Origin: Rossellomorea orangium
Lineage (GTDB): Bacteria; Bacillota; Bacilli; Bacillales; Bacillaceae_B
Direction of reading: 5' to 3'
NCBI RefSeq assembly: GCF_019334305.1
Contig: NZ_JAHWGH010000018.1
Span: 258,009 to 322,008, forward strand
DNA length: 64,000 bases
Below, in pieces: positions 15,785-45,885 of the stretch. How positions within the stretch are numbered: position 1 is the first letter of the stretch; every line of letters begins with the position of its first letter. The position numbers and the translations under genes are program-made. The notes below the pieces were generated by a model, which was not told where the DNA came from, searched no databases, and worked only from the letters and a program-made list of their open reading frames with translations.

Positions 15785-16210
15785 TCATTGAATCATCATA
15801 GAGGTGATATACACTTTTTCTACTGCGCCTTCCTGCATAAGGGAGTTCACTTTGTCTTTCACCTTGGTTTCGACCAATTCTTTACCTTTTTTCCCTTGCA
15901 GTTCTTCCGCTTTCAATTCTGAAAGCTCTTCTATGATAATATTATTTACCTGAAAGTCTCTCTTTTCTAATTCTTTCTTTGCTTTCTTGCTATCCGTCTG
16001 GATTTTAAAAGAAATCCGGATAAAATCGTTGCTCATTAAATTCGTTGTCGTTTCAGGTATATCCACCGAGTTTTCTATCACTTCCTCAATGGAAGGCCCT
16101 TTTGCCTTCTCTTCCCCTGAAAACCTAAGAATGACAACCAAGGCAATAACACCGACGAGGGTTATGGTCACCAATGAAATCATCATGATGGTAAGGGCTT
16201 TACTCTTCAA
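15785..16210 (-). CDS. fliL: Flagellar basal body-associated protein FliL
   Basis: Membrane protein of 141 residues with one N-terminal transmembrane helix (LTIMMISLVTITLVGVIALVVI) and an extracytoplasmic stomatin-like domain; the family supports stator function. The start is TTG with GAGGGAG six bases upstream, overlapping the flbD stop codon, so it is likely coupled to flbD translation. Confidence 0.93.
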   Translation of the reverse strand: MKSKALTIMMISLVTITLVGVIALVVILRFSGEEKAKGPSIEEVIENSVDIPETTTNLMSNDFIRISFKIQTDSKKAKKELEKRDFQVNNIIIEELSELKAEELQGKKGKELVETKVKDKVNSLMQEGAVEKVYITSMMIQ

Positions 16211-16422
16211 TTTTTACTCCCTCCCTCCTGTTGTAAATTCAGTAGATTCGCTTTTTGGTAGAAAGAAAGTGACAGGGCATCCACCTCGTCCACTGTTTCT
16301 TTCACAACATACCGTCTACCGTTCGTTAACAGGATGGTCGTATCAGGAAACGCTTCGATTGTTTCTATGTATAGGGCATTTAACGTAAACGATTTACCAT
16401 TCAGTCTTGTTAAAGTAATCAA
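16207..16422 (-). CDS. swrD: FlbD/SwrD family protein, motor power factor
   Basis: Small protein of 71 residues beginning MITLTRLNGKSFTLNALYIETIEAFPDTTI, the FlbD family pattern. In B. subtilis the homologue SwrD raises flagellar torque and is needed for swarming. The start is TTG, fixed by the conserved N-terminus. No ribosome binding site lies directly upstream: the AAGGGAGGAA is separated from the start by a 44-base perfect-ended hairpin. The gene ends inside the start region of fliL. Confidence 0.92.
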   Translation of the reverse strand: MITLTRLNGKSFTLNALYIETIEAFPDTTILLTNGRRYVVKETVDEVDALSLSFYQKANLLNLQQEGGSKN

Positions 16423-16430
16423 TAGTTTTT

Positions 16431-16474
16431 GGGACTGACTAAGCGGATCAGCTGCTTACCGATCAGTCAGTCCC
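16431..16474 (-). repeat. Hairpin family copy D between Shine-Dalgarno and start of flbD
   Basis: An inverted repeat with GGGACTGACT and AGTCAGTCCC arms and an inner TAAGC/GCTTA stem. On the minus strand it is preceded at once by AAGGGAGGAA (16475-16484) and followed by AAAAACTA and the flbD TTG. It lacks a T run, so it should not terminate. Removing it would leave the ribosome binding site eight bases from the start codon, an ideal gap. Confidence 0.85.
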
Positions 16475-16493
16475 TTCCTCCCTTAAGTACGTA

Positions 16494-17717
16494 TTATCGC
16501 TTCAAGTTTACAAGCTCTTGCAGGATTTCATCTGACGTCGTGATGATACGCGTGTTTGCCTGGAACCCACGTTGGGCAGTAATCATTTCCGTGAATTCTT
16601 CGGAAAGGTCTACGTTTGACATTTCAAGAGATCCGGATTGGAGTGACCCGCGTCCATCTCCTGCAACCCCCTGATTCGGAAGACCTGAGTTGTTCGAAGC
16701 CTGAAACAGATTGTTTCCTGCTTTCGTCAACCCACCGGGATTGGAGAAAGTAGCCAACGCCAATTGGCTCAGCACTCTTACTTCACCGTTTGAAAACACT
16801 CCGTTCACTTCACCGGAAGAACCGATATTGAAGCTTTCCAGATATCCCTCTGAGTTTCCATCAACAGTATCTACGTTAGCAGAAGAGGAGCTGTCGAACT
16901 GAGTGATTTTAGAGAAATCCAGGTCAATAGTTTGTGTCTGAGTTCCACCTGTTTGATTATCTAATGTAATAGGAAACGGCATCTGAGAAGTCATTTTCCC
17001 TTGCTCGTCGAAAGTCAATGAAGTCGTTTGACCTTGAGACAATGTAACATCATTTGTAAGACTGGAGATCGTAACACCCCATGTATTCTGGGCTGTCTTT
17101 GTCATTAATAATCTAAGACTGATATCCTTTCCGAGCGAATCCTTTACTTTGGTTTCCAGTTCCACTTCTGTACCATTTGGTGCACTGGACTTCAAGTTCC
17201 CATTGTAGGAAGCTTCTGTTGTCGCTTGTGGTGCCATGGTCGTATTCGTATCAATTTTAATATCCTCAGCACCGCTTTTATTGACTTCACCCGCAGCATT
17301 AACTGGATACCCCTGCACCAAATTCCCTTGACCAGTCACAAGATTTCCATTTGAGTCCAAATAAAAGTTTCCTGCACGGGTGAACATTTCGTTGTTACCT
17401 TGTCTGACAACGAAGTATCCGTCTCCTGAAATGGCAACATCCAATGATCGTCCGGTTGTCTGAAGGCTCCCCTGTGTTTGAATTGTATCAATTGATGATA
17501 AGGAAGATCCCAGACCCACTTGCTTTGCATTCTGACCTCCACGGTTAGCAGTTGCTCTACTGGCACCGGACACGGTCTGGTTCATGAGATCCTGGAACGT
17601 CACCCGGCCTTTTTTATAACCGTACGTATTCACGTTTGCAATATTATTACCGATGACGTCGAGTTTTGTTTGAAAATTTTTCATTCCACTTATACCTGAA
17701 TACATTGAACGTAGCAT
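16494..17717 (-). CDS. flgE: Flagellar hook protein FlgE
   Basis: Hook protein of 407 residues. The N-terminal rod-type helix (MLRSMYSGISGMKNFQTKLDVIGNNIANVNTYGYKK) and the C-terminal helix (SNVDLSEEFTEMITAQRGFQANTRIITTSDEILQ) are the axial-protein hallmarks. It follows the TIGR02530-type gene and precedes flbD. The middle (about residues 140-300) is much longer than in B. subtilis 168, whose hook protein is about 264 residues, and resembles the long enteric form. An AAGGGG ribosome binding site precedes the ATG. Confidence 0.94.
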   Translation of the reverse strand: MLRSMYSGISGMKNFQTKLDVIGNNIANVNTYGYKKGRVTFQDLMNQTVSGASRATANRGGQNAKQVGLGSSLSSIDTIQTQGSLQTTGRSLDVAISGDGYFVVRQGNNEMFTRAGNFYLDSNGNLVTGQGNLVQGYPVNAAGEVNKSGAEDIKIDTNTTMAPQATTEASYNGNLKSSAPNGTEVELETKVKDSLGKDISLRLLMTKTAQNTWGVTISSLTNDVTLSQGQTTSLTFDEQGKMTSQMPFPITLDNQTGGTQTQTIDLDFSKITQFDSSSSANVDTVDGNSEGYLESFNIGSSGEVNGVFSNGEVRVLSQLALATFSNPGGLTKAGNNLFQASNNSGLPNQGVAGDGRGSLQSGSLEMSNVDLSEEFTEMITAQRGFQANTRIITTSDEILQELVNLKR

Positions 17718-36464: not shown

Positions 36465-36500
36465 TAAAACTGAGACTGATAGCATTGCTATCAGTCTCAG
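36465..36500 (-). terminator. Strong terminator after sucD
   Basis: Perfect 14-base stem CTGAGACTGATAGC/GCTATCAGTCTCAG with a three-base loop, followed by TTTTAT on the minus strand, eight bases after the sucD stop codon. Confidence 0.93.
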
Positions 36501-45654: not shown

Positions 45655-45791
45655 ACGTTCTTCCTCCTCCTTCTATTCACCCCTCACTGAAGTTGAGATC
45701 CTTAAGGGTGTTCTTAGGGGAGTGGCGGCTTGTATGAGGGCCTCATAACCCTCTTTTACTATCATACCATTGATTAGCAATATTCCCTATG

Positions 45792-45845
45792 AAAAAGGGG
45801 ACTGACGTCTTAAGGCTAATAAGTAACCTTTATGGGTCAGTCCCC
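45792..45845 (-). terminator. Terminator-like hairpin after khpA (family copy C)
   Basis: Perfect ten-base outer stem GGGGACTGAC/GTCAGTCCCC with an inner stem AAGGTTA/TAGCCTT, followed by TTTTTC on the minus strand. It should end or attenuate the rpsP-khpA transcript before ylqD. Confidence 0.8.
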
Positions 45846-45885
45846 TAATTCCTATAGATGGTGTCAGGAGCTTATGAAAGCATCC

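Follow-up and report, generated by a model that had tools for sequence, protein, structure and literature searches.

A putative split ribosome-binding site ahead of flbD/swrD, with a hairpin between the Shine-Dalgarno sequence and the start codon, in Rossellomorea orangium and much of its order

How might translation of flbD/swrD begin in Rossellomorea orangium, where a hairpin separates the Shine-Dalgarno (SD) sequence from the start codon? The junction lies in a 64,000-nucleotide stretch of DNA (the window), in which direct reading of the minus strand gives the order flgE stop, GGGAGG SD, 44-nt hairpin, 8 nt and the TTG of flbD/swrD. The upstream gene, flgE (hook protein; 16494..17717, minus strand), ends in a TAA stop codon at 16494-16496 and is followed by the SD AAGGGAGGAA (16475..16484, minus strand), whose GGGAGG core occupies 16477-16482. 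The hairpin (16431..16474, minus strand) has arms at 16459-16474 and 16431-16446, with GGGACTGACT...AGTCAGTCCC as its ends, and the 8-nt stretch AAAAACTA (16423..16430, minus strand), likewise read directly, leads from it to the TTG start codon (16420..16422, minus strand). This start codon is assigned from the open reading frame (ORF) and the PF06289 match, and is the first ATG, GTG or TTG past an in-frame stop; the 71-a.a. product of flbD/swrD (16207..16422, minus strand) matches PF06289 with an E-value of 1.3e-24. An earlier note on this DNA had placed a hairpin between the SD and the TTG, with the SD more than 50 bases from the start in unfolded RNA and near it in folded RNA. Both points are borne out, as the GGAGG lies 54 nt from the TTG in linear sequence and 10 nt (2 + 8) from it once the hairpin is excised, with 8 nt from hairpin to start. 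The 91 nt around the hairpin fold at -28.2 kcal/mol (z -3.93), and none of 200 shuffles is equally stable. Downstream of flbD, fliL and fliM follow on the same strand. The TTG start of fliL lies within the end of flbD in a 4-nt overlap (16207-16210), with the fliL SD in the coding end of flbD, and the same offset of -4 occurs in the 12 relatives listed.

In principle, transcription could be terminated or attenuated at the hairpin between flgE and flbD, as the stem is GC-rich and its core is common to a second hairpin of the window (45788-45854). This reading is very improbable, however, since AAAAACTA follows the stem, the corresponding linkers of relatives consist of 50% A and 25% T (1152 nt) with no U run, and fliL and fliM continue on the same strand; an intrinsic terminator was rejected for want of a U-rich run directly after the stem. 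It had also been proposed that a mobile hairpin landed at this site, sharing its core with hairpins elsewhere in the window. The shared core holds for the hairpin at 45788-45854, which has 31-nt arms that are 74% complementary and carries GGGACTGAC, but it does not extend to an enrichment in the genome: the 9-mer GGGACTGAC has 32 genome matches as compared to 31 for the reversed control. The insertion of a mobile or repeated hairpin in this strain is thus close to inconceivable, despite the GGGACTGAC core of the second hairpin, as GGGACTGAC occurs at chance level, is not a dispersed repeat, and orthologous junctions of relatives bear other hairpins at the same spot. An origin from REP/RAYT elements was rejected as well; the genome has three Y1_Tnp matches, yet GGGACTGAC is not enriched. 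Another inverted repeat of the window, at 36470-36500, is a perfect 15-bp repeat with a 1-nt gap (CTGAGACTGATAGCA / TGCTATCAGTCTCAG).

The flbD/swrD junction is, with high probability, a split ribosome-binding site in which the hairpin loops out between the SD and the start codon. The features found are those of such a site: a distant SD with no nearby alternative, a stable hairpin between SD and start, and a spacing that is cut to approximately 5-11 nt. According to this model, the SD right behind the flgE stop would be too distant from the flbD/swrD start in extended RNA, and a hairpin of about 10 base pairs or more would fold aside, leaving the start approximately 10 nt from the SD, slightly over the usual 7. 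At such a distance the start would be usable while 16S rRNA is base-paired to the SD, and the 30S subunit, by analogy with known cases, would initiate without melting the hairpin, which would remain outside the mRNA path. A spacing of 10 rather than 7, together with an A-rich linker, may provide room for the base of the helix. Translation of flbD would presumably depend on the fold, and the split site may set flbD output relative to flgE and fliL. That folding brings the distant SD to the start codon, as the earlier note had suggested, is strongly supported by sequence comparison, given the near-constant excised spacing, the covarying stems, the rarity of other SD sequences, and the presence of the arrangement through most of the order (121 of 127 genomes).

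FlbD was found in 59 of 61 relatives; the order gave 281 positive genomes of 299, the class 144 of 200 and the phylum 130 of 199. In addition, 80 of 408 matching loci were kept from named genomes (Rossellomorea, Cytobacillus, Geobacillus, Anoxybacillus, Priestia, Metabacillus and others), whose names point to Bacillales as the order. Junctions were read at 219 loci from the relatives, order and named sets, and 167 of these are distinct; the extra junctions were hand-chosen among the matches listed for genus spread, with strong FlbD matches favored. All but three of the 167 distinct junctions contain a listed SD core; the exceptions, L012, L183 and L212, have none past the stop and are absent from the spacing counts. 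Along the linear sequence of the remaining 164, the core lies a median of 39 nt from the start (IQR 35-43, range 5-84 nt). In the 160 junctions that fold at -3 kcal/mol or better, the spacing after excision has a median of 10 (IQR 9-11, outliers 3 to 48), and among the 156 with an excised spacing of 3-17 the standard deviation is 2.1 excised vs. 9.7 linear. Because the excised spacing is derived from a predicted hairpin, its constancy depends in part on the folding model, which is addressed in part by dinucleotide shuffles: a fold of -8 kcal/mol or better together with an excised spacing of 8-12 is observed in 127/164 junctions vs. 303/3280 shuffles. Between core and start, 159 of 164 junctions fold at -6 kcal/mol or better and 145 at -10 or better, with a median junction fold of -18.6 kcal/mol, and the hairpin spans 14-67 nt. 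On the SD side of the stem the gap has a median, and commonest value, of 2 nt, and on the start side a median of 8 (IQR 7-9). For ordinary sites in the R. orangium genome, the median GGAGG-to-start distance is 7 (309 frames, with a crude choice of start). The Geobacillus-type junctions L035, L093, L099 and L114, on the other hand, have folds that leave only 1 nt before the start, which counts against the split-site model.

Other start signals for flbD are rare, as an SD core lies 20 nt or less from the flbD start in just 4 of 167 distinct junctions. The same distance holds for fliL in 87 of 95 readable loci when the start is chosen blind to the SD (89/95 in an earlier control, in which the choice of start favored those with an SD). 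Across the 167 distinct junctions, flbD starts with ATG in 98, TTG in 53 and GTG in 16. The closest relative read (L002) has ATG in place of the TTG of R. orangium, and its hairpin is closely similar.

The stems vary in sequence between junctions. The 157 hairpins that have 5 stacked outer pairs carry 69 different 5′ arms, combined into 87 unique arm pairs. When outer arms are exchanged between junctions, full pairing results in 324 of 7482 combinations, compared to 87/87 for each junction's own arms, which pair by construction. In a MAFFT alignment of 32 junctions, hand-picked for similar length, compensatory changes on both sides are found in 10 of 10 stem pairs, and 88.9% of cells pair. The covariation score of this alignment is 0.623, vs. 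0.275 (sd 0.022) when shuffled and at most 0.222 with one side slid. RNAalifold draws its own 10-pair helix, 9 pairs of which are common with the hand-drawn helix; in 13 of the 32 junctions, one outer pair (columns 10-55) does not form. The loops in the 32-junction alignment have no common sequence.

A hairpin in this position could act as a regulated switch: its opening or closing, triggered by temperature, by a protein or a second RNA, or by a ribosome completing flgE, would tune flbD translation up or down. A purely passive spacer would not seem to call for such long conservation, and within the 860 kb of the scan the structure is confined to a single gene; flbD begins with TTG or GTG in 69 of the 167 distinct junctions; and the SD pairs part-time with the flgE end or the hairpin. 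In the computed ensemble, the unpaired probability of the SD has a median of 0.44 and exceeds 0.5 in 60 of 159 junctions. This incomplete exposure of the SD, close to that with shuffled flanks (0.39), speaks against the split-site model. We nonetheless consider such a switch unlikely, as a span of 14-67 nt and loops that lack a common sequence leave no obvious shared binding site, and the folds are very stable (median -18.6 kcal/mol) and do not suggest a thermometer. The SD lies 0-149 nt from the flgE stop, and in 10 junctions it is separated from the upstream stop by at least 35 nt. Eight of these 10 still place the hairpin between the SD and the start codon, with an excised spacing of 7-15; in one of these eight (L075), the upstream frame ends unlike flgE, leaving 7 safe cases. 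The persistence of the arrangement in these junctions, one of them uncertain, counts against a switch and suggests that the hairpin belongs to the flbD start rather than to the flgE end, which argues both against a pure role at the flgE 3′ end and against a need for ribosomes finishing flgE. Sequestration of the SD as the purpose of the stem is not supported, as the SD pairs more with the flgE end (mean 0.29) than with the hairpin and spacer (0.17), and its accessibility is about that found with shuffled flanks.

A comparison of relatives for an uninterrupted ribosome-binding site, as the earlier note had advised, shows the split arrangement in 121 of 127 genomes from 40 families of the order, with 3 canonical, 2 neither and 1 both. 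Thirty-six of the 40 families are wholly split, many of them represented by one genome read. The 3 canonical junctions (L176, L048, and L199) all come from family f22 and have a nearby SD, ordinary or weak, and no split, which counts against the split-site model; 3 other members of f22 are split. L176, with a GGAGG 5 nt upstream of a GTG, constitutes a natural unsplit version. The named genomes contribute 51 further distinct junctions, 49 of which are split and 2 neither (L093 and L114); both of these, as well as L012, L035 and L042 from the order set, count as neither by the thresholds applied, with a hairpin visible. The arrangement has apparently been kept by selection across many bacterial families.

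Outside the order, 35 loci of the class (15 from the class search and 20 fetched) comprise 17 canonical, 10 split, 4 neither, 2 both and 2 unparsed junctions. Eight of the 10 split loci, and one scored as neither with a visible hairpin, belong to family f49; the remaining split loci are L289 and L297. Similar stems of the GGGCCGG type occur in the f49 loci L223, L225, L229, L235, L237, L239, L241, L242 and L246, which belong to another order. The 29 loci of the phylum sample comprise 19 canonical, 4 both, 3 neither, 2 unparsed and 1 split. Strong folds also precede ordinary sites: among the phylum loci (L251-L280), 18 of the 24 with an ordinary SD fold at -12 kcal/mol or better over the 60 nt preceding it, where 9.3 are expected from shuffles, and for the loci fetched from other orders of the class the count is 12 of 15 vs. 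8.2 expected. From these upstream folds in the phylum sample, the intercistronic hairpin may be older, and placement of the SD on its far side may be an innovation of this part of the Bacilli. The same 18 of 24 junctions favor a reading in which the flgE mRNA is processed at, or has its stability set by, the intercistronic hairpin, which the split site merely accommodates. This seems distinctly unlikely for the order, though, as its hairpins are tied to the flbD start (median gap 8) and to the SD (2) and not to the flgE stop, which is 0-149 nt from the SD.

Split sites of the kind preferred here are, to our knowledge, on record for individual phage genes and a single E. coli leader. According to a review, structure in the initiation regions of bacteriophage T4 shortens the SD-AUG spacing of gene 38 from 22 nt to 5 nt and that of gene 25 from 27 nt to 11 nt, and destabilizing mutations lower initiation (PMC3014915). 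The split site of gene 25 is reported for close T-even phages and is missing from more distant ones. As in genes 25 and 38, the SD of flbD/swrD is too distant, with a structure between that reduces the spacing to a working distance. Unlike the T4 cases, the gene here is a chromosomal flagellar gene, its spacer is longer (54 to 10 nt in the window), and the putative arrangement occurs in most sampled families of an order. By analogy, the swrD site would most likely work like the split sites of T4 genes 38 and 25. In the E. coli thrS leader, the SD is preceded by the hairpin, and the gene product represses the site; in swrD, by contrast, the hairpin lies between SD and start. At thrS, the ribosome accommodates a long hairpin without unfolding it (PMC3936740).

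The swrD/ylzI gene of Bacillus subtilis encodes a protein of the same family (PF06289). In a review, swrD is described as enhancing flagellar motor power under swarming conditions (PMC9195833). It is possible, though rather doubtful, that the junction is an order-wide, vertically kept cellular split site whose hairpin sets, and conditionally changes, the amount of SwrD relative to hook protein and FliL, with stem stability as a selected dial of motor torque. By every sequence feature tested, the junction is a split site in an unexpectedly wide bacterial setting. A literature search, which had most subscription papers outside its reach, found no report of the split flgE-swrD arrangement. Well over 100 distinct natural versions amount to a natural experiment on how much structure between SD and start the 30S subunit can tolerate, call for caution with programs that predict start sites from an SD no more than about 15 nt away, and provide a handle on the setting of SwrD dose, perhaps of motor power too.

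Within the R. orangium genome, simple ORFs were scanned over approximately 860 kb, overlapping the window by about 4 kb so that a few of the 921 ORFs enter the counts twice. An ordinary SD close to some start is present in 777 ORFs and neither form in 141, and a strong SD, hairpin and start with no ordinary SD occur in 3 of 921. Of these, flbD is far the best at -25.8 kcal/mol, the others folding at -10.9 and -10.2, and no second case comparable to flbD was found in the approximately 860 kb scanned. A comparison of 2101 bases around the site with 4227 Rfam families gave four matches (E up to 10), all far below the gathering thresholds and none on the hairpin. A covariance model of the site (R1) has a single match in the 4.57-Mb genome with an E-value of 1 or better, namely the flbD site, which belongs to its training set; 150 of 809 first-look candidates were scored in this search. 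Applied to 31 genomes with the same limit, R1 gives a match in 24. Among the 34 matches listed for these genomes, all 13 with E below 0.05 are at the flbD start (6 of the 13 loci are in the training set), as are 5 of the 21 weaker ones. Stricter filters across 41 genomes give 13 genomes with a match, and 9 of 9 matches with E below 0.05 are at flbD. As a general finder, R1 is weak. One of its off-target matches (L361, E 0.07) is a hairpin behind another gene, which we take to be that for transketolase.
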